Shown here: piece by piece, positions 1 through 19,419 of the stretch
Numbering within the stretch: the stretch's first letter is position 1
Layout: every line of letters begins with the position of its first letter
Origin: Lysobacterales bacterium
GTDB lineage: Bacteria > Pseudomonadota > Gammaproteobacteria > Xanthomonadales > Ahniellaceae
Assembly (NCBI GenBank): GCA_016182785.1
Contig: JACPFU010000003.1
Coordinates: forward strand, 186,001-250,000
Direction of reading: 5' to 3'
DNA length: 64,000 bases
The notes under the pieces: generated by a model
Databases searched by the model: none
Told to the model about the DNA's origin: nothing
What the model saw: the letters and a program-made list of their open reading frames with translations, nothing else
Translations under genes and position numbers: made by a program

Positions 1-210
1 CGGCACCGGCGAGCACCGAGGACATCGCGCGTCGACGCGTGGTGGATGTTTCGGCGAGCAGGACAGCGGTCAAGGCATTGCTCTCGGATCCCTCGGTCGC
101 CCGAGACTAAACCCTTCGCCGGCGGCTTTCCATGCGGCACGGGCACCGGAAGCGACGGTCTGACACGGATCGTTGCAAGGAATGGTCACCGCGCTGCAGC
201 CAATGCCGAG
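1..210. other. Non-coding or unresolved left edge
   Basis: I see no supportable gene here. The reading frames that cross it are short or antisense, start without a ribosome-binding site and match no family I recognise. The stretch lies upstream of the transporter operon, whose regulatory sites begin at about 211. The tail of a gene to the left of the window cannot be excluded for the first ~100 bases. Confidence 0.4.
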
Positions 211-249
211 TGTTCGCTGTCGGAACCACGGACTGTCCGCGAACGGACA
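211..249. promoter_or_regulatory. Tandem palindromes, likely enhancer sites of the NtrC-type regulator
   Basis: Bases 234-249 form a perfect 16-bp palindrome, TGTCCG-CGAA-CGGACA. A degenerate copy, TGTTCG-CTGT-CGGAAC, lies at 211-226, 23 bp away centre to centre, which is about two helical turns. Both are about 75-115 bp upstream of a consensus sigma54 promoter, the usual place for an upstream activating sequence. The only NtrC-family regulator in the window is encoded at the far end of the same gene block, so it is the natural candidate to bind here. The binding itself is inference. Confidence 0.7.
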
Positions 250-319
250 CGTGGACAACACATCTTCGTGGCTCGGCGTCTTCCATCAATTGCATCAACG
301 ACTTGCAGCAACGGCGCAT

Positions 320-334
320 TGGCACGGCGATTGC
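320..334 (+). promoter_or_regulatory. Sigma54 (RpoN) -24/-12 promoter
   Basis: TGGCAC-N5-TTGC at 320-334 matches the sigma54 consensus, with GG (321-322) and GC (333-334) ten bases apart. Counting from the -12 C puts transcription start at about 346, and the adaptor ATG is at 347. The message would therefore be leaderless or nearly so, unless a second promoter lies further upstream. Tandem palindromes upstream and a sigma54-activator gene downstream in the same block support the call. Confidence 0.8.
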
Positions 335-346
335 GCCCAAGGGGCC

Positions 347-1600
347 ATGGACATCTCCCGCCCCGACCTGAAACAGAAGAAGCGCCGCCGCCAGTTTGTG
401 TACGTGGGCGCCGGAATCCTCACGCTGATCGCGATCGCCTTCGGGCTTTATGCGATCGAACCGGCGGCGCCGAAGGTGGCGCGGGCGCAGGTGTGGATCG
501 ACGCGGTGAAGCGCGGCGAGATGAAGCGCGAGGTGCGCGGGCCGGGCACGCTGGTGCCGAAGGATGTGCGCTGGATCGCCGCGGAAACGACGGCGCGCGT
601 CGATCGCTTCCTGGTCAAGCCCGGTGCGCTGGTGAGCGCCGACACCGTGATCATGGAGCTGTCCAACCCCGAGGTGATGGACCAGCTGCTCGCGGCACGT
701 TCGGAAGTGACCGCGGCCGAGGCCGACCACGCGGCGCTGCGCATGAATCTGGAATCGCAGGCGCTGGACCAGCGCGCGAACATGGCCGGCATCGAGGCTG
801 ACTATGAATCGGCGCGACTGCAGGCCGAGGCCGAGGCTGACCTGAACCAGAAGGGCATCATCTCCGACATCAACTTCCGCCGCTCCGAGCTGACCGCAGA
901 ACGCCTCAAGGTGCGCCTCGACATCGAGCAGGAGCGCATCGCCAAGTTCAAGGACACCATGTCGGCGCAGCTCGCCGCCGGGCGTGCACGCATCGAGCAG
1001 CTGCGCAACACGCTGGCGCTGCGCGAGCGCCAGGCCGACTCGCTCAAGCTCAAGGCCGGCATCGACGGCGTGCTGCAGCAGGTTCCGGTCGAGGTCGGCC
1101 AGCAGGTTGCGCCCGGTACCAACCTGGCGCGCGTGGCGCGGCCGGACGTGTTGATCGCGGAGCTGCGCATTCCCGAGACCCAGGCCAAGGACGTGCTGGT
1201 CGGCCAGAAGGTCGCGGTCGACACCCGCAACGGCATCGTCGAGGGCCTGGTCGCGCGCATCGATCCGGCGGTGTTGAACGGCACCGTGCAGGTCGACGTC
1301 GATCTGGTCGGCGCGCTGCCCGCCGGAGCGCGCCCGGACCTGTCGATCGACGGCACCATCGAGATCGAACGCCTCGCCGACGTGCTCTACGTCGGCCGCC
1401 CCGCCTACGGCCAGCCGCAGTCCGACACCACGCTGTTCCGGGTCGATGCCAAGAGCGGCATCGCGACGCGGGTGCCGGTGAAGCTCGGACGCGCCTCGGT
1501 CACCGTGATCGAGGTCAGCCGCGGGCTCGCCGAAGGCGACCAGGTGGTGCTGTCCGACACGGAGCAATGGGACAAGTACGACCGGTTGAAATTGCAATGA
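347..1600 (+). CDS. HlyD/MacA-like periplasmic adaptor (membrane fusion protein)
   Basis: This is a 417-residue adaptor subunit that should bridge an inner-membrane ABC transporter to an outer-membrane channel. It starts with a short basic tail (KQKKRRR) and one membrane anchor at about 17-37. A lipoyl/barrel half follows, then a long Ala/Glu/Arg-rich coiled-coil hairpin at about 110-230, the second lipoyl half and a C-terminal beta domain. The ATG at 347 was preferred over upstream in-frame starts because the basic tail and anchor then sit at the N-terminus, as is usual in the family. The reading frame upstream of 347 looks non-coding. The sigma54 promoter ends 12 bases before this ATG. The gene is first of a block with two ABC ATPases and five permeases, which makes it the adaptor of that transporter. 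The substrate is unknown. Confidence 0.88.
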   Translation: MDISRPDLKQKKRRRQFVYVGAGILTLIAIAFGLYAIEPAAPKVARAQVWIDAVKRGEMKREVRGPGTLVPKDVRWIAAETTARVDRFLVKPGALVSADTVIMELSNPEVMDQLLAARSEVTAAEADHAALRMNLESQALDQRANMAGIEADYESARLQAEAEADLNQKGIISDINFRRSELTAERLKVRLDIEQERIAKFKDTMSAQLAAGRARIEQLRNTLALRERQADSLKLKAGIDGVLQQVPVEVGQQVAPGTNLARVARPDVLIAELRIPETQAKDVLVGQKVAVDTRNGIVEGLVARIDPAVLNGTVQVDVDLVGALPAGARPDLSIDGTIEIERLADVLYVGRPAYGQPQSDTTLFRVDAKSGIATRVPVKLGRASVTVIEVSRGLAEGDQVVLSDTEQWDKYDRLKLQ

Positions 1601-1657
1601 CGCGAACATGCTTTTCCCCTCTCCCTGCCGAACCACCACACGACACGAGCCAACGCC

Positions 1658-2425
1658 ATGACCGCAGCCACTTCCTCCCTGATCCAGCTCCGCGACATCC
1701 AGAAGGTGTTCTTCACCGACGAGGTCGAGACGCATGCGCTGGCCGGCGTGCACTTCGACCTGGCGCGCGGCGAGTACGTCTCGATCTCCGGGCCATCGGG
1801 CTGCGGCAAATCGACGCTGCTGTCGATCCTCGGCCTGCTCGATACGCCGACCGGCGGCAGCTACACGCTGAACGGCACCTCGGTGGAATCGATCAATGCC
1901 AACGAGCGCGCGCGCATCCGCAACCGCGAGATCGGCTTCATCTTCCAGGCCTTCAACCTGATCGGCGATCTGAGCGTGTTCGAGAACGTCGAGCTGCCGC
2001 TGACCTACCGCGACGGCATGGGCAAGGCCGAGCGCCGCGAGCGCGTGCAGGAAGCACTCGAGCGCGTCGGCATGGCGCATCGGCTCAAGCATTTCCCGGC
2101 GCAGCTTTCGGGCGGCCAGCAGCAGCGTGTTGCGGTGGCGCGTGCGCTGGTCGGCAAGCCGTCGATCCTGCTCGCCGACGAACCGACCGGAAACCTCGAC
2201 TCGAAGAACGGCGAAGCGGTGATGGAACTGCTCGACGAACTGCACAAGGGCGGCGCGACCATCTGCATGGTCACGCACGACCCGCGCTACGCGGAGTTCG
2301 CGAGCCGCAAGATCTTCATGTTCGACGGCCGCGTCGTCGACGAGGAAACCCTGCATCGCCTGCGCAAGGAAGAGGATGCACGCCTGTTCAAGCGCGTCGC
2401 ACCCGTGTCCGGCCAGGCCGCCTGA
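1658..2425 (+). CDS. ABC transporter ATP-binding protein (MacB/LolD type)
   Basis: This 255-residue nucleotide-binding subunit powers the neighbouring FtsX-type permeases. All ATPase motifs are intact: Walker A GPSGCGKST (45-53), Q-loop FIFQ near residue 97, signature LSGGQ (150-154), Walker B ILLADE (170-175), D-loop NLD (179-181) and switch histidine in VTHD (H207). Sequence and length fit the MacB/LolD class of exporter ATPases. The ATG at 1658 begins just before the conserved N-terminal strand. It lies 57 bp after the adaptor stop and 5 bp before the next small gene, so co-transcription is very likely. It appears fully catalytic, unlike the second ATPase of the block at 14898. Confidence 0.93.
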   Translation: MTAATSSLIQLRDIQKVFFTDEVETHALAGVHFDLARGEYVSISGPSGCGKSTLLSILGLLDTPTGGSYTLNGTSVESINANERARIRNREIGFIFQAFNLIGDLSVFENVELPLTYRDGMGKAERRERVQEALERVGMAHRLKHFPAQLSGGQQQRVAVARALVGKPSILLADEPTGNLDSKNGEAVMELLDELHKGGATICMVTHDPRYAEFASRKIFMFDGRVVDEETLHRLRKEEDARLFKRVAPVSGQAA

Positions 2426-2430
2426 GGAGC

Positions 2431-2622
2431 ATGACCATGAACGCGAATTGCCCATCGAACGATCGCAACCTTCGCCCGCACGATGGCGAGGTCTGCCGGC
2501 TGGTGACCGAACTGGTGCGCGCGCTGCCGTCGATCGCGCTCGGCACGGATCGACCGGCGCATGACGCGCGCTCGCGCGCGGCCGAGTTCGCCGCTGCGCT
2601 GGCAGCGCGCCGCACGCACTGA
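2431..2622 (+). CDS. Small 63-residue protein of the transporter operon, unknown function
   Basis: The frame opens at an ATG preceded by GAGGAG and is packed exactly between the ATPase stop (5 bp before) and the first permease start (9 bp after). The spacing and ribosome-binding site suggest it is translated. The protein is hydrophilic, with no signal peptide or membrane segment. It has two cysteines in its first third and an Ala/Arg-rich C-terminus. I recognise no family. It could be a small accessory or regulatory subunit, or only a chance frame in GC-rich DNA, so the call is moderate. Confidence 0.5.
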   Translation: MTMNANCPSNDRNLRPHDGEVCRLVTELVRALPSIALGTDRPAHDARSRAAEFAAALAARRTH

Positions 2623-2631
2623 GGAACGACC

Positions 2632-5079
2632 ATGAGCGCATTCCTGCACGACCTGCGCCTGGCGCTGCGCCAGTTCCGCCACCGCCCCGGATTGTGGGCT
2701 GCGGTGGTGCTGACGCTCGCGCTCGGCATCGGTGCCAACGCCGCGGTGTTCCACGTGTTCGAGCGGCTGCTGCTGGCGCCGCTGCCCTACGCCAACGACG
2801 AGCGCCTGGTGCTGGTCTACAACACCTATCCGAAGAATGACCTCGAGTACGCCGGCACCTCGGTGCCGGACTACCTCGATCGCAAGACCCAGGCACCGTC
2901 GCTCGAAGACCTCGGCCTGTTCTTCACCCGTGGCATGACCTTGCTCGGCGGCGACGAGCCGCGGCGGGTGCAGATCACCCGCGCAACGCCTTCGTTCTTC
3001 ACCACGCTCGGGGTCAAGCCGGCGCTCGGCGCGGTGTTCGGCGAGGCCGAGGCCGGCGGCAGTGGCGAGTCGGTGGTGGTGATCACGCACGGCCTGTGGC
3101 AAAGCGCGTTCGGCGGCAGCCGCGACGTGCTCGGGCGCGAGCTCAAGCTCGACGGCGGCAGCTGGCGCGTGATCGGCGTGCTGCCGCCCGGGTTCGCGGT
3201 GCCGCTGGAAGAATCCGACGCGATCGTGCCGGCGGTGTTCACCCCGGAGCAGGCCTCCGACGCATCGCGCGGCAATGAATTCTCGGCCTCGGTCGGGCGC
3301 CTGCGCGCCGGCGCGCAGATCAGCCAGCTCAATGCCGAGCTCGATGCGATCGTCAAGCGCAACGCCGACCGCCTGCCCGAGGACTACCGCACCTTCTTCG
3401 ATGCCAGCGGGTTTACCGGCCGCGCCAAGCCGCTGCGCCAGGCGATCGTCGGCGATGTCGCCGGCACCCTGCGCATGCTGCAGGCGGCGACCTTGCTGGT
3501 GCTGCTGATCGCCTGCGCCAACGTCGCCAACCTGCTGCTCGCGCAGCACATCGCGCGCACCCGGGAATACGCGGTGCGCAGCGCCATCGGCGCGCGCTCC
3601 GGGGATCTGATGCGCCAGGCGCTGGCGGAGGCGGTGCTGGCGGCGCTGGTCGGTGCCGCGGTCGGCCTGCTGGTTGCGCACGCGGTGCTGGCGGTGATGT
3701 CCGCGCTGGCCGGCAACGCGCTGCTGCTGCGCGATATCGACCCGGTGCTGCCGTGGGCCACGCAGGCGCTGACCGTGGCCGCCGCGCTGGTGTTGGTGCC
3801 GCTGATCGCGGCGCTGCCGATCGTGTTTGCCGGTCGCACCGCGCCGGCGCTGCGCTTGCGCGATGCCGGTCGCAGCGGCAGCGGCGGCGTCGCCGCCGGT
3901 CGTGCGCGCAGCGGCCTGGTGGTGGTGCAGCTGGCGCTGTCCTCGGCGCTGCTGGTCGCCGCCGGTTTGCTGATGCGCAGCTACCTGCGGGTGACCGCGG
4001 AATCGCCGGGGTTCTCCGCGCACGGCGTGCTGACCGCGTTCGTCGAGCTGCCCGAGAGCCGCTATCCCGATCCGGTCGCGCAGCGCGCGTTCTTCGACCG
4101 CGCCCGCGCCGCCGCCGCTGCCATTCCCGGCGTCGAGCGCAGCGGCTGGATCACCGGCCTGCCGTTCACGCCGTTCGGGTTCGGTGCCTCCTACGCCGTG
4201 CGCGGCCTGGAACTGGCGCCCGGGGTGTTGCCGCACGCGCAGATCCGTCTCGCCGACGGCGACTACTTCAAGGCGATGGATATCCCGGTGCTGCGCGGGC
4301 GCGTATTCGGCGAGGCCGATCGCAATGGCGAGCCGGTGGTGGTGATCGACGAACTGCTGGCGAAGAAGTACTTCGCCGACCGCGATCCCATCGGTGGCTA
4401 TCTCGCACGCGGCGATGGCCAGGCCGAAGACACGGTGTGGATGCGCGTGATCGGCGTGGTCGGCACCGTGCGCGGGCAATCGCTCGCGGAGACGCCGAAC
4501 AAGGAGACGATCTACGCGCCGGTCGGCAGTTTCCCGATCGGGATGTCGACGCTGGTACTGCGCAGCAGCATCGACCCGGACACGATGGCGGCGACGCTGC
4601 GTCGCACGCTGCGCGATCTCGATCCGCAGCTGGCGCTGTACGACGTGCAGACGCTGGACGCGCGCATCGACGCCTCGCTCGGCCTGCGCCGCGCTCCGTT
4701 GGCACTGGTCGGTGCGTTCGCGACCACGGCGCTGCTGCTCGCGGTGGTCGGCCTGTACGGCGTGCTTGCGTTCGTGGTCGGCAGCCGCAGCAGCGAGATC
4801 GGCCTGCGCATGGCGATCGGCGCGCGCGGCGGCGACGTCGTGCGCATGGTGGTCGGGCAGGGCGTGCGCCTGGTCGGCGCCGGTCTGGTGCTCGGGTTGC
4901 TGCTGGCCGCGGCTGGCGGCGGCGTGCTGTCGACGCAGCTATTCGGCGTCGGCGTGCTCGATCCGCTGACCTTCCTTGCGGTGGCGGCGGTGCTGCTGCT
5001 GGCGGCGCTGGTCGCCTGCATCGCGCCGGCGCGCCGCGCCGCTGCAGTCGATCCGATCGACGCCCTGCGCAGCGAGTGA
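2632..5079 (+). CDS. Duplicated MacB/FtsX-type ABC permease 1
   Basis: This 815-residue inner-membrane permease has two MacB-like periplasmic domains, each tied to FtsX membrane helices. Helices are visible at about 21-43, around 285-310, 330-355, 375-400 and 425-445, and in a final bundle from about 690 to 805. The FtsX signature near residue 310 (TREYAVRSAIGAR) recurs as SEIGLRMAIGAR near residue 725. The C-terminus (PARRAAAVDPIDALRSE) is typical of MacB/FtsX permeases. The double architecture is about twice the length of a standard MacB membrane half and resembles the 'ADOP' duplicated permeases known from Acidobacteria. A GAGGAAC ribosome-binding site precedes the ATG. It is the first of five tandem paralogues. 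Confidence 0.9.
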   Translation: MSAFLHDLRLALRQFRHRPGLWAAVVLTLALGIGANAAVFHVFERLLLAPLPYANDERLVLVYNTYPKNDLEYAGTSVPDYLDRKTQAPSLEDLGLFFTRGMTLLGGDEPRRVQITRATPSFFTTLGVKPALGAVFGEAEAGGSGESVVVITHGLWQSAFGGSRDVLGRELKLDGGSWRVIGVLPPGFAVPLEESDAIVPAVFTPEQASDASRGNEFSASVGRLRAGAQISQLNAELDAIVKRNADRLPEDYRTFFDASGFTGRAKPLRQAIVGDVAGTLRMLQAATLLVLLIACANVANLLLAQHIARTREYAVRSAIGARSGDLMRQALAEAVLAALVGAAVGLLVAHAVLAVMSALAGNALLLRDIDPVLPWATQALTVAAALVLVPLIAALPIVFAGRTAPALRLRDAGRSGSGGVAAGRARSGLVVVQLALSSALLVAAGLLMRSYLRVTAESPGFSAHGVLTAFVELPESRYPDPVAQRAFFDRARAAAAAIPGVERSGWITGLPFTPFGFGASYAVRGLELAPGVLPHAQIRLADGDYFKAMDIPVLRGRVFGEADRNGEPVVVIDELLAKKYFADRDPIGGYLARGDGQAEDTVWMRVIGVVGTVRGQSLAETPNKETIYAPVGSFPIGMSTLVLRSSIDPDTMAATLRRTLRDLDPQLALYDVQTLDARIDASLGLRRAPLALVGAFATTALLLAVVGLYGVLAFVVGSRSSEIGLRMAIGARGGDVVRMVVGQGVRLVGAGLVLGLLLAAAGGGVLSTQLFGVGVLDPLTFLAVAAVLLLAALVACIAPARRAAAVDPIDALRSE

Positions 5080-5092
5080 ACGCCACCGGAGC

Positions 5093-7609
5093 ATGACCAT
5101 GATTGCAAGCGCCCTCAGCTCGCTTCGCCAGGCCTGGCGTGCCGTCTGGACCCGGCCGCTGCCGAGCCTGCTGGTGATCGTCACGCTGGCGATCGGCATC
5201 GGCGCAACCAGCGCGATGTACGCGCTGTTCGCGCAGCTGGTGTTGCGGCCGCTGCCGGTAGCCGCGCCCGAGCGGCTGCTGAACCTGGTCGACCATGGCG
5301 AACGCGAGGGCCAGGTCAATGCCAACATCGGCGGCGGTCGCGAGAGCGTGTTCAGCTATCCGCTGTACCTGGACCTGGCGGCGGCGACCGACGCGGTCGA
5401 GGGCATCGCCGCGCACCGCAGCGCCGAGGCCAGCCTGGCCTGGCGCGGCGCGACGCGCAGCGGTCGTGCGATGGCGGTGTCCGGTAATTACTTCGCGCTG
5501 CTCGGACTCCAGCCCGCGCTCGGGCGGCTGCTCGCGCCGCAGGACGACCGCGTGCCGAACCAGGCCGATGCGGTGGTGCTCGCGCATGACTACTGGCGCG
5601 ACGCTTTCGGCGGCCGCAGCGACGTGCTCGGCCAGACGCTGTCGGTGAACGGGCGCGCGCTGGCGATCGTCGGTGTCGCGCCGGCGGGGTTCTTTGGCAC
5701 CACGATCGGCGTGCGGCCGATGGTCTACGTGCCGATCACGATGCCCGATCCGGCGCAGGCCGGTGCATCGCCGAGCCCGTTCGAGCGTCGCGACGTGCAT
5801 TGGCTGTACCTGTTCGCGCGGCTCGCGCCCGGGCGCGATGCGGACGCCGCCGGCGCGCTGCTCGGCGCGCACTACCAGGCGCTGATCGAACAACGCGAGT
5901 GGCCCGCAGCGCGCGACCAGAGCCCCGAGGCGCGCGAGCGCTTCTTCGCCAAGCGCCTGCTGCTCATGCCCGGTGCGCGCGGCCAGAGCCGCGTGCCGGA
6001 ACGCGCCGGGTTGCCGGCGACGCTGCTGTTCGTGCTCACCGTGATCGTGCTCGCCACCGCCTGCGCCAACATCGCCAACCTGCTGCTGGCGCAGGGCTCG
6101 GCGCGGCTCGGCGAGATGGCGCTGCGCGCTTCGCTCGGTGCCTCCGCGGCGCGTCTGTTGCGACAGATGCTGGCCGAGGCGTCGCTGCTCGCGCTGCTCG
6201 GCGCGCTCGCGGCATTGCCGGTGGCGATGCTCACCCTGCAAGGCGTGGCCGCGATCTTGCCGGAACAAGCCGTGGCCGGGGTCGAGGTCGGCCTGTCGCC
6301 CTCGATGATCGCGTTCGCGCTGGCCGCGGGGGCGGTGACGGCGCTGGTGTTCGGGTTGTTTCCGGCCTGGCAGCTGTCGCGCACCACGCCGCAACAAGCC
6401 TTGCGCGCGCAGTCGGCGCAGACGCTCGGCGGGCGCGGCGGCGGGCGCCTGCGGCTGGTGCTCGCGACCACGCAGATCGCGGTGTCGCTGGCGCTGCTGG
6501 TGCTGGCCGGCCTGTTCGCGGCAAGCCTGTGGCATGCCGAACGCATCGACACCGGCCTGCCGGTCGAACGCCTGACCGTGTTCACGCTCGCGCCCGAGCG
6601 CAGCGGCTACGACGCCGCGCGCGCCGAGCAGTTGTACCGGCGCGTCAGCGACGACCTCGCGGCGCTGCCCGGAGTGCGCGCCGTCAGCACCGCCGAGGTC
6701 GGCCTGTTCTCCGGCTCGAACATGCAGTCGAACGTGGCCGTGCAAGGCTATGCCGGCGATCCGCGATCGAGTTTTGCCTGGGTCAACGTCGGCGGACCCG
6801 GGTTCGTGCAGGCGCTCGGCCTGACGTTGATCGCCGGTCGCGACTTCAGCATTGCCGACGCGCCCGACGCCACGCCGGTCGTGATCGTGAACCGCCGCTT
6901 CGCCGAGCGCTTCGGGCTCGGCAGCGAGGCCGTCGGCAAGCGCATGAGCCAGGGCCAGGGCGGGCCGCTGGACCTGCACATCGTCGGCGTCGTCGCCGAT
7001 GTCGGCTACAGCGACCTCAAGGACGAAGTGCCGCCGCAGTTCTGGCTGGCACGACCGCAGGCCGGCGGCGGCCGGCAGACCTTCTACGTGCACGCAAGCC
7101 TGCCCGCCGAACTGGTGATGGCGGCGGTGCGCGCGCGCGTCGCCGCGATCGATGCGAACCTGCCGATCGACGCGCTGCAGCCGTTCGCGGCACAGCTCGC
7201 CGACAACCTCGCCAACGACCGCATGGTCGGCACCCTCTCTGCCGCGTTCGCGTTGGTCGCGACCTTGCTTGCGGCCACCGGCTTGTTTGGCGTGCTCTCG
7301 TACTCGGTGGCACAGCGGCAGCGCGAGATCGCGCTGCGGCTCGCGCTGGGTGCGGCACCGGCGCGACTGTCGCGCATGGTGTTCGGCCAGGTGCTGCGCA
7401 TGACCGCGGTCGGCGGCGGCATCGGCCTTGGCCTCGCGCTCGCGCTCGGTCGCGGTGCGGAATCGCTGTTGTTTGGCATCGGCGGTCGCGATCCGGCGAT
7501 CTATGCGGCGGCAGCGACGGTGCTGATCGCGACCGTGTTCGTCGCCGCCTGGTGGCCGGCGCGCCGCGCCGCGCGCACCGAACCGATGCAAGTGCTGCGA
7601 GGAGAGTGA
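5093..7609 (+). CDS. Duplicated MacB/FtsX-type ABC permease 2
   Basis: This 838-residue paralogue of the preceding permease starts 13 bp after it. The ATG at 5093 (with a second ATG at 5099) follows CCGGAGC. The open frame upstream overlaps permease 1 and is not the real N-terminus. The first helix lies at about 22-45. The first FtsX core has ANIANLLLAQGSARLGEMALRA-type sequence near residue 330, the second has REIALRLALGAAPAR near residue 745, and the C-terminus is PARRAARTEPMQVLRGE. The region between the first core and the second anchor is slightly longer than in its siblings. It is expected to export a substrate or transmit force with the operon ATPases; the substrate is unknown. Confidence 0.9.
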   Translation: MTMIASALSSLRQAWRAVWTRPLPSLLVIVTLAIGIGATSAMYALFAQLVLRPLPVAAPERLLNLVDHGEREGQVNANIGGGRESVFSYPLYLDLAAATDAVEGIAAHRSAEASLAWRGATRSGRAMAVSGNYFALLGLQPALGRLLAPQDDRVPNQADAVVLAHDYWRDAFGGRSDVLGQTLSVNGRALAIVGVAPAGFFGTTIGVRPMVYVPITMPDPAQAGASPSPFERRDVHWLYLFARLAPGRDADAAGALLGAHYQALIEQREWPAARDQSPEARERFFAKRLLLMPGARGQSRVPERAGLPATLLFVLTVIVLATACANIANLLLAQGSARLGEMALRASLGASAARLLRQMLAEASLLALLGALAALPVAMLTLQGVAAILPEQAVAGVEVGLSPSMIAFALAAGAVTALVFGLFPAWQLSRTTPQQALRAQSAQTLGGRGGGRLRLVLATTQIAVSLALLVLAGLFAASLWHAERIDTGLPVERLTVFTLAPERSGYDAARAEQLYRRVSDDLAALPGVRAVSTAEVGLFSGSNMQSNVAVQGYAGDPRSSFAWVNVGGPGFVQALGLTLIAGRDFSIADAPDATPVVIVNRRFAERFGLGSEAVGKRMSQGQGGPLDLHIVGVVADVGYSDLKDEVPPQFWLARPQAGGGRQTFYVHASLPAELVMAAVRARVAAIDANLPIDALQPFAAQLADNLANDRMVGTLSAAFALVATLLAATGLFGVLSYSVAQRQREIALRLALGAAPARLSRMVFGQVLRMTAVGGGIGLGLALALGRGAESLLFGIGGRDPAIYAAAATVLIATVFVAAWWPARRAARTEPMQVLRGE

Positions 7610-7610
7610 G

Positions 7611-10028
7611 ATGCGCAACTGGCCGGCGGTGTTCGCGACCGAACTCGGCAACGGACTGCGCCAGCTGCGACGGCGGCCGGCGATCAGCGCGCTGATCGTG
7701 CTGATCCTTGCGCTCGGGCTCGGCTCGGCGCTGTTCGTGCTGACCGCGGTCGACGCCATGGTGCTGCGACCGATGCCGTTTCCGGAGCCGGAGCGGCTGG
7801 TGCAGATCGGTCGCGTGGACGAGTTCGGGGACGAGGGACTCGGTGCCATCAACTCGCAGGACTTCCTCGACCTGCGTGCCGGGCTGTCGCAATTCGAGGC
7901 GGTCGAGGGCTTCTACCAGGCGACCATGAATCTGGCCGAGGGCGCCCGCGTCGAACGCCACGAGGGCGTGTTCGTCAGCGGCGGGCTGTTTGCGCTGCTC
8001 GGCCAGCAGGCCGCGCTCGGGCGCACCGTCGCGCCGGCGGACGACACCCCGGCAGCGGGCGTGCGCGTGGTGCTGTCCGACCGCGTCTGGCGCGAGCGTT
8101 TCGGCGCCGACGCCGGCGTCATCGGCCGCGCGGTGCGCCTGAATGCGCAGCCGGCCGAGGTCATCGGCGTGATGCCGCCGGGGTTCGCGTTTCCATTCAC
8201 CGGGGAAATGTGGGCCGCGGGGCGGCACGCGCCAGGCGAGGCCAGCGCGCAGCAGCGCGAGTTCGAGGTGCTGGCGCGGCTTGGCGCCGGCGCAAGCATG
8301 GACAGCGCCGCGGCCGAGCTGCAGACGCTGTGGCCGCGACTGCAGGCGGCGCGCCCCGAGCTGCGCCGCGATGTGCGCCTGGCGCTGCTGCCGGCGGCGT
8401 GGCGCTTCGTCGACGGCGGTGCGCGCAACGTCGTGTCGCTGATGCTGCTCGCCGCGATCTCGGTGCTATTGGTCGCCTGCGCCAATGTCGCCAACCTGCA
8501 GCTGGCGCAGTTCGCCGAGCGCAGCCGCGAGCTGGCGTTGCGCGCGGCGATCGGCGCCGGACGCGGACGCCTGCTCGGCTCGCTGCTGGCCGAGACGCTG
8601 GTGCTGAACCTGGTTGCGGTCGCGCTCGCGGCTGCGTTCACGCATTGGGCCGGCACCGCGACGCTGCGCTACTTCGTCGAGGCCGGCGACGGGCCGGCGT
8701 ACTGGATCAGCTTCGCGCTGACGCCGCGGGTCGCGTTGTGCGGCATCGCGGTGGCCTTCGCGAGCACGCTGTTTGCCGGCCTGTGGCCCGGCTGGCGCGC
8801 CTCCGGGCTGGCGCTGAACCGGGTGCTGGCGAGCCATGGCCGCAGCGGCCTGACGGCGCTGCCGCTGGTGCGCACGCTGATCGTCGCGCAGATCGCCATT
8901 TCGTTCGTGCTGCTGCTGGGTGCCGGGCTGGTCTGGCGACTGCTCGATGGCCGCAATCACTTCGACCTGGGCATCGGCGTGCCGACGCAGCAACTGCTCA
9001 CCGCGCGCGTTGCGGTGTTTCCGGAGAAGTTCCCGGACGCGGCCGCGCGCGTGGCTTTCTTCGAGCGCGTCGGCGAGCGGCTGCGCGCCGAGCCCGGCGT
9101 GGTCGCTGCCACCGTGGCCGAAGCCACGCCCGGGTTCATGGCCGGCGGCGCGCAGGTGCGCATCGAAGGCACCGATCCGCAGTTGCCGCGCGCGACTGCG
9201 TTGCGCAGTTCGATCGACGACCAGTTCGGTCCGACCTACGGTGTGGTCGCACTCTCCGGACGGCTGCCGGATGCGCGCGACCGCGCCGACACGCAGCCGG
9301 TGGTGGTGGTCGACCAGCGCTTCGCCGCGCGCCACTGGCCGCAGCAGGACCCGCTCGGGCGGCGCCTGCGCCTGGCCGACGACGGTCCGTGGATCGAGGT
9401 GGTCGGCGTGGTCCGCGCGTTGACGCTCGAAGACGTCGATGACCCGCTGCTGCCGTCGCTGCTGTTGCCGATGCGCCAGCAGCCGGTGCAGTTCGCGACC
9501 ATCGCGGTGCGCACCGCGGGCGATCCGGCGGCATTCGCGCCGCGGCTTGCCGAGATCGTGCGCGAGGTCGATGCCGACACGCCGGTGTACTGGGTGCGCA
9601 CGCTGGCCGATGCGCTGGCGCGCGATCGCGCTGGCGATCGCTTCCTGTCCGGCCTGTTCGCGATCTTCGGCGCGGTCGGCCTGACGCTGGCCGGCGCCGG
9701 GCTGTTCGGCGTGCTGGCGCAGGTGGTGCAGGCGCGCACCCGCGAAATCGGCGTGCGCCGCGTGGTCGGCGCCAGCACCCGCGCCATCGTCGCGCTGGTC
9801 ACCCGCGACAGCACGCGCCTGCTACTCGCCGGTCTGGTTTTCGGTGCCGCGCTTGGCCTGCCGTGGGCCTGGCTGCTCGCCCGCGCAGCGCCCGACCTGA
9901 ACCCGTTCGACCTCACTATCTTCGCTGCGGTGGCGGTGCTGGTGCTGTTTGCCTGCCTGCTCGCCGTGCTGTTCCCCGCCCGCCGCGCGCTAGCGATCGC
10001 GCCGGCCGAAGCGTTGCGCGCCGACTGA
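7611..10028 (+). CDS. Duplicated MacB/FtsX-type ABC permease 3
   Basis: This 805-residue member of the tandem permease family has its ATG one base after the previous stop, with GGAGAG upstream, so translation is probably coupled. It has an N-terminal helix at about 25-46 and a first FtsX block with CANVANLQLAQFAERSRELALRAAIGA-like sequence (given in part) near residues 286-315. The second block contains TREIGVRRVVGAS near residue 720, and the C-terminus is PARRALAIAPAEALRAD. It resembles permease 4 more closely than permeases 1 and 2: both carry VFPE(K/Q)FP just after the mid-protein helix and DTPVYWV or NTPVYWV before the last helices. Confidence 0.9.
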   Translation: MRNWPAVFATELGNGLRQLRRRPAISALIVLILALGLGSALFVLTAVDAMVLRPMPFPEPERLVQIGRVDEFGDEGLGAINSQDFLDLRAGLSQFEAVEGFYQATMNLAEGARVERHEGVFVSGGLFALLGQQAALGRTVAPADDTPAAGVRVVLSDRVWRERFGADAGVIGRAVRLNAQPAEVIGVMPPGFAFPFTGEMWAAGRHAPGEASAQQREFEVLARLGAGASMDSAAAELQTLWPRLQAARPELRRDVRLALLPAAWRFVDGGARNVVSLMLLAAISVLLVACANVANLQLAQFAERSRELALRAAIGAGRGRLLGSLLAETLVLNLVAVALAAAFTHWAGTATLRYFVEAGDGPAYWISFALTPRVALCGIAVAFASTLFAGLWPGWRASGLALNRVLASHGRSGLTALPLVRTLIVAQIAISFVLLLGAGLVWRLLDGRNHFDLGIGVPTQQLLTARVAVFPEKFPDAAARVAFFERVGERLRAEPGVVAATVAEATPGFMAGGAQVRIEGTDPQLPRATALRSSIDDQFGPTYGVVALSGRLPDARDRADTQPVVVVDQRFAARHWPQQDPLGRRLRLADDGPWIEVVGVVRALTLEDVDDPLLPSLLLPMRQQPVQFATIAVRTAGDPAAFAPRLAEIVREVDADTPVYWVRTLADALARDRAGDRFLSGLFAIFGAVGLTLAGAGLFGVLAQVVQARTREIGVRRVVGASTRAIVALVTRDSTRLLLAGLVFGAALGLPWAWLLARAAPDLNPFDLTIFAAVAVLVLFACLLAVLFPARRALAIAPAEALRAD

Positions 10029-10051
10029 TCTGCCTCTGCCAAGGAGTTGTC

Positions 10052-12472: not shown

Positions 12473-12480
12473 GGCATCCG

Positions 12481-14901
12481 ATGCGAATCTTTCTGGGTGA
12501 TCTGAAGTCCGGGCTGCGCCAGCTGCTGAGCCAGCCGTGGTCGAGCGGTTTCGCGATCGGTGCGCTGGCGGTGTCGATCGGTGCCATCACTGCGTTGTTC
12601 GCAGCGGCGAACGCGTTGCTGCTGCAACCGGTGCAGGGCATCCGCGAACCCGAGCGCATGATCGAGACCGGCCGCGGCAACGAGGGCCGGCTCGACACCA
12701 TCTCGGCGCCGCTGCTGCGCGCCTTCAACGAACCATCGACGACGATCGAGGGCATGTTCGGCTGGTCGCTGCTGCCGGTAAACCTGGTTGCCGGCAGCGA
12801 GCCGACGCGCGCGTTCGGTTTCCTGGTCAGCGAGAACTACTTCGACCTGCTCGGCGTGAAGGCGCAACGCGGGCGCCTGTTCTCGCCGAGGCTGGATGCG
12901 CGGCGCGGCGCCAGCCCGCATGCGGTGATCTCGCATGCGGCCTGGCAGAAGCACTTCGGCGGCGATCCCGACATCGTCGGACGCAACGTGAGCCTGAACG
13001 GGCAGTCCTTCCTGGTGATCGGCGTGACCGACCGCGCGTTCCGCAGCCATGTCTCGCTGCTGTCGCCGGATGTCTACGTGCCGCTGTCGATGCAGCGCCA
13101 GGTGCAGCCCTCCAACGGCGACCTGCTCGACGCGGTCGGAGCCTACTGGCTGCTCTCGGCAGCGCGCCTGAAACCGGGCGCGACCATCGAGAGCACGGCG
13201 GCGGAGCTGCGCGCGCGCATGGCTGCGTTCGAGCGCGAACATCCGCAGGAACGCGAGCGGGAACAGACCATGGGCGCGTTGCCGCTCGGTGCATTGCCGG
13301 CGGACATCGCGCAGGGCTTCGGCATGTTCAGCGGCGCCATGCTGGTGCTGGTGTTGATGGTGCTGCTGATCGCCTGCGTCAACGTCGCCGGCATGATGCT
13401 GGCGCGCGGCGAGGCGCGTGCCGGCGAGCTGGCGGTGCGCAGCGCGCTCGGGGCCGACCGCTGGCGGCTGACGCGGATGCTGTTCAACGAGTCGCTGCTG
13501 CTGGCCGCGATCGCGACCGCGTTCGGCGTGCTGATCGCACGCATGCTGCTCGGCGCGGTCGCTCTGGGTGCGTTGCCAACGCCCTTTCCGATCGACGTGT
13601 CGCTCAATCTCGGCGCGCGTCCGCTGCTGGCCTCGGTCGCCGCGGCGTTCCTGGCTGCGCTCGTGTTCGGCATGTGGCCGGCCTGGCGCAGCGTGCGCAA
13701 TCGGCTCGGCGACGCCGCGCGCAGCATTGTCGGTCAGCGCAGTCGCACGCGCGAGCTGCTGGTGGTCGCGCAGGTGGCGCTCACCGTGGTGTTGCTGGTG
13801 GCTTCGGCACTGTTCCTGCGTGCGCTCGATCGTGCCCATGCGGTCGAACTGGGTTTCCGCGTCGAAGGTGTGTACACCGCCGACATGGATCTGGAGCCGA
13901 CCGGCTATGACGCCACGCGCCAGCAACAGGTGGCCAGCGCAATCGTCGCGGCGGTCGCCGCAACGCCGGGGATCGAACGAGCCAGCTATGCGCGCGTGGT
14001 GCCGCTGTCGGGATCGACCATGGTGCTCGGCGAGGTTGGGGAAGAACCCTTGCCGGAGGCGACGCGATTCGCTGCCGCCAACGTGGTTTCCGCCGACTAC
14101 TTCCGCACCCTCGACCTGCGCGTGCAGGGCGAGCAATTCAGCGATCGTCATCGGCGCGATGGCGACAAGGTGATGATCGTGAACGAAACGCTGGCCCGCG
14201 CCCTGTTCGGTGCCGAGCCGGCGATCGGGCGCAGCGTGAAGTTCGTTGGTGTCGAAGGCGGCCAGGTGCGCATCATCGGCGTCGCCGCGAACAGCCGCTA
14301 CGCGAAGCTGAGCGAAGACCCGCAACCGTTCCTGTACCTGCCGGCGACCCAGCATGAGTTCGCGCAGTATTCGTTGCTGGTGCAATCGGCATTGCCGCAG
14401 CCGGAGATCGCGCGTGTCGTGCGCGATGCCTTTGTGCGGGTCGATGCGAGCTTGCCGCGTCCACCGCTGCATGCGCTGGTCGACACCGTGGCGCTGAACC
14501 TGTTGCCGCAGCGCATCGCCAGTGGCGTCGCCGGCGTGTTGGGGCTGCTCGGCCTGTTGCTGGCCGGTATCGGCACCTATGGGCTGATCGCGCATTTCGT
14601 TGCCAGCCGCACCCGCGAGATCGGCGTGCGCCTGTCGATGGGCGCGACGCCGCGCCGCATCGAGCGCGACGTGCTGCAGCGCGGGCTGCGCCTCGGCGGC
14701 ATCGGTCTCGGCATCGGGCTGGCACTCGCGGTCGCGCTGGCGATGGCGATGTCGGGGCTGGTGTTCGGTCTGCAGGCAGGCGATGTCACCGCCTTCGTCG
14801 CGGCAGCGCTGGTGCTGGCGCTGGCGGTCTTCCTCGCCAGCTGGTTCCCCGCGCGCCGTGCCGCGCGCATCTCGCCGATGACGGCGCTTCGCCACGAATG
14901 A
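12481..14901 (+). CDS. Duplicated MacB/FtsX-type ABC permease 5
   Basis: This 806-residue fifth paralogue begins 8 bp after permease 4. The ATG at 12481 was chosen because the basic/hydrophobic N-terminus (MRIFLGDLKSGLRQL and a helix at about 22-44) matches that of the other permeases. The first FtsX core has GELAVRSALGADRWR near residue 315, and the second has TREIGVRLSMGATPRR near 715. The C-terminus is [17 protein letters not shown]. Its last codon overlaps the next ATPase by four bases (ATGA), so this permease and the second ATPase are probably translationally coupled. Confidence 0.9.
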   Translation: MRIFLGDLKSGLRQLLSQPWSSGFAIGALAVSIGAITALFAAANALLLQPVQGIREPERMIETGRGNEGRLDTISAPLLRAFNEPSTTIEGMFGWSLLPVNLVAGSEPTRAFGFLVSENYFDLLGVKAQRGRLFSPRLDARRGASPHAVISHAAWQKHFGGDPDIVGRNVSLNGQSFLVIGVTDRAFRSHVSLLSPDVYVPLSMQRQVQPSNGDLLDAVGAYWLLSAARLKPGATIESTAAELRARMAAFEREHPQEREREQTMGALPLGALPADIAQGFGMFSGAMLVLVLMVLLIACVNVAGMMLARGEARAGELAVRSALGADRWRLTRMLFNESLLLAAIATAFGVLIARMLLGAVALGALPTPFPIDVSLNLGARPLLASVAAAFLAALVFGMWPAWRSVRNRLGDAARSIVGQRSRTRELLVVAQVALTVVLLVASALFLRALDRAHAVELGFRVEGVYTADMDLEPTGYDATRQQQVASAIVAAVAATPGIERASYARVVPLSGSTMVLGEVGEEPLPEATRFAAANVVSADYFRTLDLRVQGEQFSDRHRRDGDKVMIVNETLARALFGAEPAIGRSVKFVGVEGGQVRIIGVAANSRYAKLSEDPQPFLYLPATQHEFAQYSLLVQSALPQPEIARVVRDAFVRVDASLPRPPLHALVDTVALNLLPQRIASGVAGVLGLLGLLLAGIGTYGLIAHFVASRTREIGVRLSMGATPRRIERDVLQRGLRLGGIGLGIGLALAVALAMAMSGLVFGLQAGDVTAFVAAALVLALAVFLASWFPARRAARISPMTALRHE

Positions 14902-15575
14902 GCCGAGCCATGATCGAACTGCGCAATCTCGAACGTTCCTATCCGATCGCGACCGGACGCAGCTGGGTGCTGCGCAACATCCGGCTCGCTATCGGCGAGG
15001 GCGACTTCGTCAGCATCACCGGCCCCTCGGGTTCGGGCAAGACCAGTCTGCTCAACGTGCTCGGCATGATGGATCACGAGTGGAGCGGCGAGTTCCGCTT
15101 CGACGGCCAGCAGGTGCAGGGGATGAATCCAAGACAGCGCCAGGCATTCGCGCGCGACAAGGTCGGTTTCATCTTCCAGCACTATCACCTGATCGACGAT
15201 CTGAGCGTCGCCGAGAACCTCGACCTGCCCTTGCAGTATCGCGACGTGCCGGCCAAGGAGCGCGCCGCGCGCGTTGGCGACGTGCTCGACCGTTTCCAGA
15301 TCGTCGGCAAGAAGGACCTGTATCCGAACCAGCTCTCCGGCGGCCAGCAGCAACTGGTTGCGGTCGCCCGCGCGGTGATCGCGCGGCCGCGCTTGCTGCT
15401 CGCCGACGAACCGACCGGCGCGCTGCATTCGAGCCAGGGCCAGATGATCATGGACCTGCTGCAGCAGTTGAATCGCGAGGGCACCACGATCGTGCAGGTC
15501 ACCCACAACGAGGCCTACGCGAAGATGGCCAAGCGGGTGGTGAGCCTGTTCGATGGCTGGCTGACCGAAGCGTGA
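14898..15575 (+). CDS. Second ABC transporter ATP-binding protein, D-loop altered
   Basis: This 225-residue nucleotide-binding protein belongs to the same MacB/LolD class as the ATPase at 1658. Walker A GPSGSGKT (42-49), Q-loop Q94, signature LSGGQ (146-150), Walker B LLLADE (166-171) and the switch histidine (H203) are all present. The D-loop, normally LD, reads ALHSS (175-179), so the conserved aspartate is a histidine. The arginine that usually follows the signature (QQQR) is leucine. It may therefore be a weaker or asymmetric partner of the first ATPase. It overlaps permease 5 by 4 bp and is followed by 144 bp of repeat-bearing spacer before the regulator gene. Confidence 0.9.
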
Positions 15576-15582
15576 CGCTCTT

Positions 15583-15680
15583 CCCTCTCCCTCGATGGGA
15601 GAGGGGCAGGGGAGAGGGTGAATTCGGAGCGGTGTCGCCGCGTGCCCCCTCTCTCCCGCGAGGCGAGAGAGGAGAAGGCA
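15583..15680. repeat. Intergenic CCCTCTCCC/GGGAGAGGG palindromic repeat
   Basis: Two adjacent imperfect inverted repeats made of CCCTCTCC and GGAGAGGG blocks lie at 15583-15618 and 15645-15672. Elements of this composition are common between genes in Xanthomonadales and related high-GC Proteobacteria. Its place between the transporter genes and the regulatory pair could give a partial transcription stop or mRNA end protection. Family membership is from memory, not from a search. Confidence 0.6.
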
Positions 15681-15719
15681 GGTCGGCGAATCCCCTGGAG
15701 CTACGGTTAGTATTCGAAC

Positions 15720-17093
15720 ATGTCCACTCTCCCCATCCTGATCGCTGACGACCAGCGCGATGTGCTCGAAGCGCTGCGCATGATGCTCAAGGCCGAGGGC
15801 CTGGCCTGCGTCACCGTGTCCGATCCCGAGGCAGCGGTCGCGGCGGTGAAGCGCCAGCATTTCGCCTGCGCGCTGCTCGACTTGAACTACAGCCGCGACA
15901 CCACCTCGGGGCGCGAGGGCATTGAACTGATCCAGCAGTTGCGCGCACTTGAGGCGCAGCTGCCGATCGTGGTGATGACTGCCTGGGGCACGATCGATCT
16001 GGCGGTGCAGGCGATGCGTCACGGCGCCGCCGACTTCGTCGAGAAGCCCTGGGACAACAATCGCCTGCTGACCATCCTGCGCAATCAGATCGCGCTCGGT
16101 CAGGCGCAGCGGCGTGTGGCCCAGCTCGATGCCGAGAACAGCTACCTGCGCGGCGACGAGGCGGAAGGCTTCATCGCGCAGTCGAAGGCGATGCAGCCAG
16201 TGCTGGAGCTGATCCGCCGCGTCGGGCCATCGGACGCGAACGTGCTGATCACCGGCGACAACGGCACCGGCAAGGGCGTGATCGCCAAGCACCTGCACGA
16301 GGCTTCGCGTCGCGCCGAGCGGCCGTTCATCAAGGTCAACATGGGCGGCGTGCCCGAGCACCTGTTCGAGGCCGAGATGTTCGGTCACGTCAAGGGCGCA
16401 TTCACCGACGCCAAGTCCGACCGCGTCGGCCGCTTCGAGGTTGCCGATGGCGGCACCTTGTTCCTCGACGAGATCGGCAACATCCCGCCCTCGCAGCAAC
16501 CCAAGTTGCTGCGCGTGCTCGAAGACCACGAACTGGAACGCGTCGGCTCCTCGCGCACGCTGCAGGTCGACGTGCGCGTGGTGTCGGCGACCAATGCCGA
16601 TCTCGCCGCGCTGGTCAGCTCCGGCGGCTTCCGCAAGGACCTGCTGTTTCGGCTGAATACCGTCGAGATCCGCCTACCGCCGCTGCGCGAACGGCGCGAG
16701 GACATCGCCGCGCTGACCGCGCACTATCTCGCACGCTTCGGCGAGCGCTACGGCCGCCCCGAGTTGCGCGTTGCGCCCTCGGCGCTGCGCCAGTTGGAGG
16801 GCTACCACTGGCCGGGCAACGTGCGCGAGCTCGGGCATCTGGTCGAACGCGCGGTGCTGATGACCGTCGGCGACACCATCGAGGACTTCGCGCTCGACCC
16901 GAGCCTGCCGCCGGTGGCGAAACACGCCGCGGTTGCAACCGAGGCCGCGACCATCGAACAGGCCGAGGAAGCCATGATCCGCAACGCCCTCGACCGCACC
17001 GGCGGCAACGTGCTCAAGGCCGCTGGGCTGCTCGGACTCAGTCGCGGCGCGCTGTATCGGCGGCTAGAGAAGTACGGCTTGCGCAGCGACTGA
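15720..17093 (+). CDS. Sigma54-dependent response regulator (NtrC family)
   Basis: This 457-residue activator has three domains. The receiver (1-120) has the acidic pair D10/D11, phospho-acceptor D54 and K109. The AAA+ domain (about 148-385) has Walker A GDNGTGKG (179-186), Walker B GGTLFLDE (244-251) and arginine-finger region [10 protein letters not shown]. The Fis-type helix-turn-helix is at about 415-455. The sigma54-contacting loop reads GAFTDA (226-231) instead of the usual GAFTGA. It is paired with the histidine kinase one base downstream. The matching sigma54 promoter and palindromes lie upstream of the adaptor at 347, so it probably activates the transporter block. The ATG at 15720 starts directly before the first receiver strand. 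Confidence 0.94.
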
Positions 17094-17094
17094 C

Positions 17095-18468
17095 ATGCGC
17101 CTGCTGCCCGGCATCGACAAGGAACCCGGCCGCAAGCCGCAACTGAGCTACGAGAGCGCGATCCTGCTTTCCGCGCTCGCGATCCTGCTGCCGCCGCTCG
17201 TGGTGGCGTTACTGCTGGTCGGGTGGTCGGGCGCGCGCGAGCACTGGTTGATGCTGCTGATTCCGGCAGTGCTGGTGTCGCTGCTGCTGGCGCTGCGGCT
17301 GCGCGCGCGCGTGGTGTTCCCGCTGTACACGCTGTCGAACCTGCTCGAAGCGTTGCGCGAAGGCGACTACTCGCTGCGCGGCTCGCGCGCGCGTCGCAAC
17401 GACGCGATCGGCGAGGTGATCTGGGAAGTCAATGCGCTGTCGCAGACGCTGCGCGAGCAGCGGCTGCGTGTCGAGGAGACGATGGCGCTGCTGTCGAAAG
17501 TGGTTGCCGAGATCGACATCGCGGTGTTCGCCTTCGACGTGCACCGCAACCTGCGCCTGATCAATCCCGCCGGTGCGCGTCTGCTGTGCCGGCACCCGCG
17601 CGAGGCCGAGGGCCGCAGCGCCGAGGAACTCGACCTCGCCGATTGCCTTGCGGTCGAAGGCGCGCAAACCTTGCGCCGCAGCTTTCCGGGTGGCGAAGGT
17701 CGCTTCGACGTGCGCCGCAGCACCTTCCGCGAAGGCGGCCTGCCGCATGAGCTGATCGTGGTCACCGACCTCAGCCGCGCACTGCGCGAAGAGGAACGCC
17801 AGGCCTGGCAGCGACTGATCCGAGTGCTCGGGCATGAACTCAACAATTCCCTGGCGCCGATCAAGTCCATGGCCGGCACCCTGCGCGCGATGACCGCGCG
17901 CGAGCCCCTGCCCGAGGACTGGCGCGACGACCTCGCCACCGGCCTTGGTCTGATCGAAGATCGTGCCGAGGCGCTGACGCGCTTCATGCTCGGCTACACC
18001 ACGCTGGCGCGACTGCCGCCGCCGGCCAAGCGCGACACCGACATCGGCGCGCTGCTGCAGCGGGTCGCGCAGTTGCAGCAGGGTATCCGCGTGCATTGCG
18101 ACTGCGATGCCGTGCGCGACGTCAGTGTCGGCATCGACCCCGACCAGATCGAACAGGCGCTGATCAACCTGCTCAAGAATGCCGCCGAAGCGATGCAGCA
18201 GCGCGGCGATGCGCAACTGGTCGCGAGGCTCGAACAGGACGGCTCCGGCAGCGGCGCCCGGTTCCTGGTCATCGAGATCATCGACAGCGGCCCCGGCCTC
18301 GCCGCCACCGACAACCTGTTCGTACCGTTCTTCACCACCAAACCTGGTGGCAGCGGCATCGGCCTCGTGCTCGCGCGCCAGATCGCCGAAGGCCACGGCG
18401 GCTCGCTCACCCTCGAAAACCGCCGTGATGCGAAGGGCTGTGTGGCGCGGTTGGTGGTGGGGGTTTGA
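17095..18468 (+). CDS. Membrane sensor histidine kinase (NtrY/AtoS-like)
   Basis: This 457-residue kinase has two closely spaced membrane helices (about 22-45 and 51-70) with almost no periplasmic loop. It probably senses a membrane or cytoplasmic signal rather than a periplasmic ligand. A HAMP-like linker (72-125), a PAS domain (about 132-225) and a HisKA helix with LGHELNNSLAPIK (phospho-acceptor H247) follow. The ATPase domain has the N box LINLLKNAAEAM, G1 DSGPGL and G2 GSGIGLVLA. It starts one base after the response regulator stop, so the two form a cognate pair. The LNNSLAPI version of the H box is typical of kinases that partner NtrC-type regulators. Confidence 0.93.
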   Translation: MRLLPGIDKEPGRKPQLSYESAILLSALAILLPPLVVALLLVGWSGAREHWLMLLIPAVLVSLLLALRLRARVVFPLYTLSNLLEALREGDYSLRGSRARRNDAIGEVIWEVNALSQTLREQRLRVEETMALLSKVVAEIDIAVFAFDVHRNLRLINPAGARLLCRHPREAEGRSAEELDLADCLAVEGAQTLRRSFPGGEGRFDVRRSTFREGGLPHELIVVTDLSRALREEERQAWQRLIRVLGHELNNSLAPIKSMAGTLRAMTAREPLPEDWRDDLATGLGLIEDRAEALTRFMLGYTTLARLPPPAKRDTDIGALLQRVAQLQQGIRVHCDCDAVRDVSVGIDPDQIEQALINLLKNAAEAMQQRGDAQLVARLEQDGSGSGARFLVIEIIDSGPGLAATDNLFVPFFTTKPGGSGIGLVLARQIAEGHGGSLTLENRRDAKGCVARLVVGV

Positions 18469-18507
18469 TTGGGGCGGGGATGTGGGGGTGGGGGTGTCGC
18501 AACCCCA

Positions 18508-18584
18508 ATCGCGCCGTTGCCGGCGCTCCTACAAACGGCCACGAAACCGCGCGCTGTTTGTAGGAGCGCCGGCAACGGCGCGAT
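18508..18584. repeat. REP palindrome, 29-bp perfect arms (left copy)
   Basis: Bases 18508-18536 and 18556-18584 are exact inverted copies separated by a 19-base loop. The arm runs from ATCGCGCCGTTGCC to CTCCTACAAAC. A second copy lies at 19344-19419 on the other side of the RAYT gene, the usual arrangement for a RAYT and its REP elements. It lies just after the kinase stop and may also act as a transcription stop. Confidence 0.88.
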
Positions 18585-18610
18585 AAACGCATCACACGTG
18601 CCGTTCGGCC

Positions 18611-18662
18611 GCAACGGCGCGATCAACCCGCCGCGACGCGCGATCAACCCGCCGCGACGCGC
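18611..18662. repeat. Short direct repeats (GCGATCAACCCGCCGCGACG)
   Basis: Two adjacent copies of a roughly 20-bp unit lie at about 18618-18661. A partial, related GGCGCGATC motif follows near 18672. The same GATCAACCCGCCGCGA core returns twice on the far side of the RAYT gene, at 19417-19434 and 19453-19470, so the unit is part of the REP island. No coding potential is seen here. Confidence 0.7.
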
Positions 18663-18771
18663 CATCATCACGGCGCGATCCACCCACCGCCACACGTCAT
18701 CCGAAATTTCGCATCCATCATTCCGCCATCGCCTGATGTCGGGCGCGGTCCGGGTCGGCGACATTGGCGGC

Positions 18772-19245: not shown

Positions 19246-19343
19246 TCGCGCGGTGGATGGGGTGGTATCGCATCCCAATCGCGCGGTGGATGGGGTGGTA
19301 TCGCATCCCAATCGCACGGTGGATGGGGTGGTATCGCATCCCA
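19245..19343. repeat. 33-bp tandem repeat, three units
   Basis: Three head-to-tail 33-bp units begin at 19245, 19278 and 19311 and differ at one position (GCGCGG versus GCACGG). A fourth begins at 19344 and grades into the right REP palindrome. Each unit ends with TATCGCATCCCA. The array starts at the last base of the RAYT stop codon. The units are contiguous with no spacers, so this is not a CRISPR array. Confidence 0.9.
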
Positions 19344-19419
19344 ATCGCGCCGTGGCCGGCGCTCCTACAGACGGCCCGAAACCGCGCGCTGTCTGTAGGA
19401 GCGCCGGCAACGGCGCGAT
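19344..19419. repeat. REP palindrome, 29-bp arms (right copy)
   Basis: Arms at 19344-19372 and 19391-19419 are inverted copies with one mismatch and an 18-base loop. Compared with the left copy at 18508, the arm tips changed on both strands (CAAAC/GTTTG to CAGAC/GTCTG), so pairing is preserved. It lies between the RAYT gene and the 3' end of ybaL, which is encoded on the opposite strand. Confidence 0.88.

Follow-up and report, generated by a model that had tools for sequence, protein, structure and literature searches.

Positions 211-347 of the window (i.e. of the whole 64-kb stretch of DNA that was analysed) very probably constitute the sigma-54 promoter of an ADOP/MacB-type exporter operon, which is governed by an NtrC-type switch and whose adaptor gene starts nearly without a leader. 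The anatomy of the region, i.e. the predicted elements, their order, the fixed 12-14 nucleotides between -12 and ATG, the lack of a Shine-Dalgarno sequence and the specificity for the adaptor, is seen by sequence and comparison. The advantage would most likely lie in keeping translation going while canonical initiation is impaired, or in a set adaptor-to-permease ratio. The elements before the adaptor gene are the following.

211..226, no strand assigned: degenerate second operator TGTTCGCTGTCGGAAC, with 3 mismatches and 23 bp from the perfect copy; the tandem arrangement is conserved
234..249, no strand assigned: perfect palindromic operator TGTCCG-CGAA-CGGACA (TGTCCGCGAACGGACA), predicted binding site of the regulator encoded at 15720; the same motif precedes orthologues and one further gene of this genome
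293..305, + strand: IHF-like site CATCAACGACTTG, 1 mismatch to WATCARNNNNTTR; counterparts are found in orthologues
320..334, + strand: sigma-54 core promoter TGGCACGGCGATTGC (-24/-12), 11 of 11 consensus positions; kept in 81 of 85 orthologues
346..347, + strand: predicted start of the transcript at A347 or, less probably, at C346, with a tolerance of about 3 nt in the upstream direction; it is placed by the 12-13 nt from the -12 C and by the pyrimidine before A in 79 of 81 orthologues

They are followed by a ten-gene block that begins just inside the start of the window and runs from the adaptor through the histidine kinase (347-18468).

347..1600, + strand: periplasmic adaptor of the HlyD/RND_mfp type, N-terminus MDISRPDLKQKKRRR (family profile matches)
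1658..2425, + strand: ABC ATPase 1, MacB/LolD/DarD-like (family profile scan)
2632..5079, + strand: permease 1, ADOP family (TIGR03434), 760.9 bits against a cut-off of 622.3
5093..7609, + strand: permease 2, ADOP family, 713.3 bits
7611..10028, + strand: permease 3, ADOP family, 640.9 bits
10052..12472, + strand: permease 4, ADOP-like, 591.5 bits, just below the cut-off
12481..14901, + strand: permease 5, ADOP family, 670 bits
14898..15575, + strand: ABC ATPase 2, MacB/DarD-like (family profile scan)
15720..17093, + strand: NtrC-type response regulator, the predicted activator, with receiver, Sigma54_activat and Fis HTH_8 domains (domain matches; linkage to the adaptor in relatives)
17095..18468, + strand: sensor histidine kinase, partner of the regulator (domain matches)

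Four of the five permeases pass the curated cut-off of TIGR03434 (622.3), and the product of 10052-12472 can be called ADOP-like only. Identity with the darobactin exporter DarBCD was rejected by the corresponding models, since the scores are far under all three cut-offs (DarC 90.8 vs 450, DarB 27.9 vs 700, DarD 256 vs 375). A possible reading frame of 63 residues lies between ATPase 1 and permease 1 (window 2431-2622). The kinase gene is followed by an ORF resembling a REP-associated (Y1-type) transposase (window 18469-19360), and tandem repeats of 21 bp (18608-18678) and 33 bp (19245-19355) are located in and beside it. At one locus of a relative (L212, G213 C1, around 96000) the first 12 adaptor codons run straight into the end of the ATPase, i.e. 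there is an operon-internal deletion, and the truncated adaptor still has the operator and the leaderless sigma-54 promoter in front.

TGGCACGGCGATTGC is the sole occurrence of TGGCA-N6-TTGC within the 64-kb window, and its GG (321-322) and GC (333-334) have the GG-N10-GC spacing that is required. A gene for RpoN is present elsewhere in the genome (PF04552 match, E 1e-67). TGTCCGCGAACGGACA is likewise the only match to the palindrome with at most one mismatch in the window, where 0.32 are expected. The elements named in the original prediction were all recovered: the perfect TGTCCG-N4-CGGACA palindrome (234-249), the degenerate copy 23 bp away (211-226, 3 mismatches), the TGGCAC-N5-TTGC motif directly before the adaptor gene (320-334, 11/11 consensus positions, conserved among orthologues) and the NtrC-type activator and kinase about 15 kb downstream (15720-17093 and 17095-18468).

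Could the palindromes and the -24/-12 elements be chance matches in GC-rich DNA? Shuffled versions of the window contain such a palindrome, with one mismatch or none, in 31 of 100 cases, so the evidence from the window by itself is weak, and we relied on the comparison with relatives. A palindrome search upstream of orthologous operons, as suggested by the original prediction, found the palindrome, its tandem copy, the -24/-12 elements and the spacing to the ATG all conserved. Operators were counted by scoring 10 fixed positions. At most one mismatch was found in 44 of 81 orthologue upstream regions, where 0.8 would be expected by chance, and an additional site at 20-23 bp from the best-scoring one, i.e. 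at two helical turns, was counted 42 times as against about 2. The composite of operator and sigma-54 core occurs 30 times in 250 genomes and the reversed pattern 0 times. The IHF-like site is present with at most one mismatch in 29 of 81 orthologues (3.2 expected), and in 23 of these 29 it is at -57 to -54 from the ATG. It counts against our proposal that only these 44 of 81 orthologues have a near-perfect operator. Nevertheless, because operator, promoter (81/85 at a fixed spacing) and composite are conserved in relatives, a chance origin is practically out of the question.

In 85 of 99 tabulated cases the adaptor and the regulator gene are no more than 45 kb apart, and in 75 of these 85 the regulator gene is downstream and on the same strand. 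From this linkage and the co-conservation we infer that the 15720 regulator binds the operator at 211-249. Its sigma-54 activation domain has GAFTDA where GAFTGA is canonical, i.e. one residue is different, and this counts against the proposal. Natural variants of the GAFTGA loop exist. In several relatives (L222, L223, L224, L234) the second ATPase, encoded near the regulator, is preceded by an operator and a sigma-54 promoter of its own, and its leader is normal, which indicates that the block can split into two units.

If C334 is taken as -12, +1 falls on 346, and the ATG of the adaptor occupies 347-349. Sigma-54 start points scatter by 2-3 nt. For C. jejuni, the published gap between sigma-54 motif and start point is 8-13 nt (PMC3847290), which would allow about 343-348 as the start here. 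Judged by the position of the promoter, the adaptor transcript is predicted to be leaderless or nearly so, with a leader of about 0-3 nt. In other words, the start near 346 proposed by the original prediction stands, and its statement that this start abuts the ATG at 347 is better read as a leader of that length.

We looked for the adaptor in the order (128 of 398 genomes) and among named bacterial contigs, and 85 distinct orthologue upstream regions from the same order were used for comparing the spacing. It is conspicuous that 81 of the 85 have strong -24/-12 elements with a predicted leader of 0-2 nt, i.e. the -12 C is 12-14 nt before the ATG; the predicted leader is 0, 1 and 2 nt long in 10, 60 and 11 regions, respectively. 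The identity of the adaptor proteins reaches down to 35%, and the stretch from -43 to -29 relative to the ATG is randomised in these regions, with no more than 0.13 bits at any position. Shared ancestry of undiverged DNA therefore does not account for the fixed spacing. The constant distance between the -12 element and the ATG points to selection. It spans families f1, f2, f3, f4, f7, f9, f11 and f12 of the order, and on a tree built from the first 160 adaptor residues only, with two long branches, the leaderless label changes 4 times as against 28 for shuffled labels. Three of the four exceptions among the 85 regions form one clade (L127-L129), and in two of these three the regulator gene precedes the adaptor by about 1.7 kb in the same orientation. 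The sisters of this clade, L091 and L101, have kept the leaderless site although their regulator is likewise upstream.

In Acidobacteriota and a few further phyla, the sigma-54 leader of the adaptor measures 3-16 nt or 50-76 nt, or a clear site is lacking, which means that the adaptor family as a whole is not strictly leaderless. A very short leader may thus be old in the family and strict only in this order. Remoter adaptor-like genes with the same kind of operator (L205, L217-L220) have GTG or TTG starts or long leaders, i.e. leaderlessness is not general to adaptors.

The start codon is ATG in all 81 leaderless-type orthologues, and the base before it is C in 75, T in 4 and A in 2. A pyrimidine is thus at -1 in 79 of 81 adaptors as compared with 22 of 30 ATPase starts from the same loci (Fisher p=0.0004, uncorrected for relatedness; the control of 30 is small and the sequences are related). 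Such a pyrimidine-A step, lying where transcription is expected to begin, favours initiation on the first base of the start codon. Positions -4 to -2 from the ATG, however, are enriched in G (46-51 of 81 orthologues), which makes a leader of 2-3 nt possible.

The latter observation bears on the nearest rival reading, a real sigma-54 promoter with a leader of 2-5 nt (e.g. from the G run at 341-344), in which the tight spacing reflects compactness and the adaptor has no translation mode of its own. The G enrichment, the scatter of sigma-54 starts by a few nucleotides and the 3-16 nt leaders of acidobacterial relatives agree with it, whereas the pyrimidine-purine preference (79/81) favours the A of the ATG. 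We regard this reading as rather unlikely, and its consequence differs little from that of a leaderless start: as such a leader leaves no room for a Shine-Dalgarno sequence, translation would still be leaderless-like.

In 72 of the 81 relatives the region from -20 to -5 contains no stretch of at least 4 nt that matches a Shine-Dalgarno sequence, and matches there are no commoner than in two neutral windows. The AAGGGG before the adaptor of the window is only 2 nt from the ATG. The permease genes at 2632, 7611 and 10052 have GAGG- or GGAG-type sites upstream. The fold of the first 60 nt of the adaptor mRNA is weak (z +1.8), which is compatible with leaderless initiation and not specific for it. 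The missing Shine-Dalgarno sequence also argues against an additional, unrecognised upstream promoter, since the leadered adaptor mRNA that it would supply, with the sigma-54 start being secondary or giving a transcript poor in translation, is expected to use one. Our promoter scan covered the sigma-70 and sigma-54 types, which leaves this alternative some room, but no sigma-70-like site was found in window 1-700, and we consider it improbable.

An adaptor that starts further downstream, at the in-frame GTG codons at 398 or 404, would turn the sigma-54 leader into one of about 50-60 nt. Two relatives of the same genus do have ATG codons there; downstream start codons are not conserved, however, and a KKRRR stretch ahead of the membrane helix would be lost. 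The MD- N-terminus at 347 is kept in 81 of 81 orthologues and is mostly common to the other phyla also (MDI-type), some of which have a Shine-Dalgarno sequence before it; L021, a relative from another phylum, has a clear GAGGAGG before its MD- start. Moreover, an in-frame stop is present at most 5 codons upstream of the start in 13 leaderless relatives. The start codon at 347 therefore looks secure, and the downstream start is very improbable.

Are other genes under sigma-54 control leaderless as well? In the same genome, sigma-54-like sites give leaders of 25 nt for glnA, 58 nt for a type IV pilin-like gene, 19 nt for a secreted protein and 23 nt for a small exported protein (gene names read from N-termini), each with a GGAG-type Shine-Dalgarno sequence. 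Outside this genome, ATPase genes that share the operator and promoter carry leaders of 21-27 nt, and some of these leaders contain Shine-Dalgarno-like sites. A hand count in 250 genomes gave no excess of other leaderless sigma-54 genes (44 non-adaptor matches vs 38 in the reversed control). Since the leaders of non-adaptor genes under this operator and promoter measure at least 20 nt and mostly include Shine-Dalgarno sites, the very short leader is specific to the adaptor. In other words, the predicted leaderless trait appears to follow the adaptor gene and not the sigma factor or the regulon. The leaderless transcript of the original prediction is strengthened, as far as sequence comparison can do so, by the conserved spacing, the missing Shine-Dalgarno sequence and the leadered controls of its own genome.

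In front of the small exported protein gene (G000 C6:9049) the perfect operator recurs, and the 86 bp that separate it from the -24 element equal the distance at the adaptor. The locus spans C6:8914-9282 (L002, L175, L207), and its product has 78 residues, a signal-peptide-like N-terminus and no Pfam match. The gene with a perfect operator is conserved in two genomes of the same genus (L196, L197), and convincing homologues were not found beyond the genus. The protein is possibly the signal or the cargo of the regulator. The genome contains 20 palindromes with at most one mismatch; among the 15 examined, only C6:8914, besides the window site, pairs with a strong sigma-54 site at the right distance. 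A further candidate, C33:293340, was rejected, since the site that it has at 86 bp is weak and lacks the GG.

The following course of events is proposed. The kinase (17095) would phosphorylate the NtrC-type regulator (15720), which would bind as dimers at two sites two helical turns apart (211-249). Bending near 293-305, for which IHF is the presumed agent, would bring the regulator to the sigma-54 polymerase held at 320-334, and ATP hydrolysis would open the promoter. Transcription would start from A347 of the ATG or at most about 3 nt upstream, and the adaptor mRNA, being leaderless or nearly so, would be translated without a Shine-Dalgarno sequence. We tentatively suggest, as a possibility, that leaderlessness is a selected, gene-specific translation mode: one enhancer-binding protein would drive several sigma-54 genes, with the adaptor mRNA alone being leaderless, and this would serve translation when initiation is blocked (by ribosome-directed compounds or a shortage of initiation factors) or set adaptor/pump ratios.

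Sigma-54 promoters, leaderless mRNAs and ADOP exporters are each already known. Our literature search, which ran outside subscription papers and supplementary start-site tables, found no description of the exporter operon or of a conserved, gene-specific leaderless sigma-54 promoter, and single leaderless sigma-54 cases may sit unremarked in published start-site maps. Leaderless mRNAs are widespread, but selection for any given one is hard to establish. Here, one gene appears to keep the leaderless arrangement across much of an order, under a tightly regulated, inducible promoter. The sister genes of the regulon are built-in leadered controls, so the purpose of leaderless translation becomes directly testable. 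In addition, an uncharacterised two-component system gains a predicted operator and a predicted regulon, i.e. the exporter operon and the small exported protein.

With ADOP permeases (TIGR03434) and MacAB/DarBCD-type exporters the operon shares the adaptor, FtsX/MacB_PCD permeases and DarD-like ATPases; it differs in that five permeases and two ATPases are found in one block. Xylella fastidiosa belongs to the same order as the source of the window. NtrC-family sigma-54 promoters such as that of glnA, including the one of X. fastidiosa (PMC3224663), resemble the present one in the TGGCACG-N4-TTGC core, the upstream activator sites, the IHF-like site between these and the core, and a cognate two-component regulator. 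Transcription of X. fastidiosa glnA begins 35 nt ahead of the ATG, and a Shine-Dalgarno sequence is predicted for this gene (PMC3224663), whereas the ATG of the adaptor sits at the predicted start point itself. In this respect the adaptor resembles natural leaderless mRNAs (S. meliloti, PMC3616915; B. japonicum, PMC4842269; L. interrogans, PMC5243855), which have the 5' end at or within a few nucleotides of the AUG, as is predicted here, and no Shine-Dalgarno sequence. The motif upstream of the leaderless starts of B. japonicum is a sigma-70-like extended -10 (PMC4842269), in contrast to the sigma-54 core in front of the adaptor.
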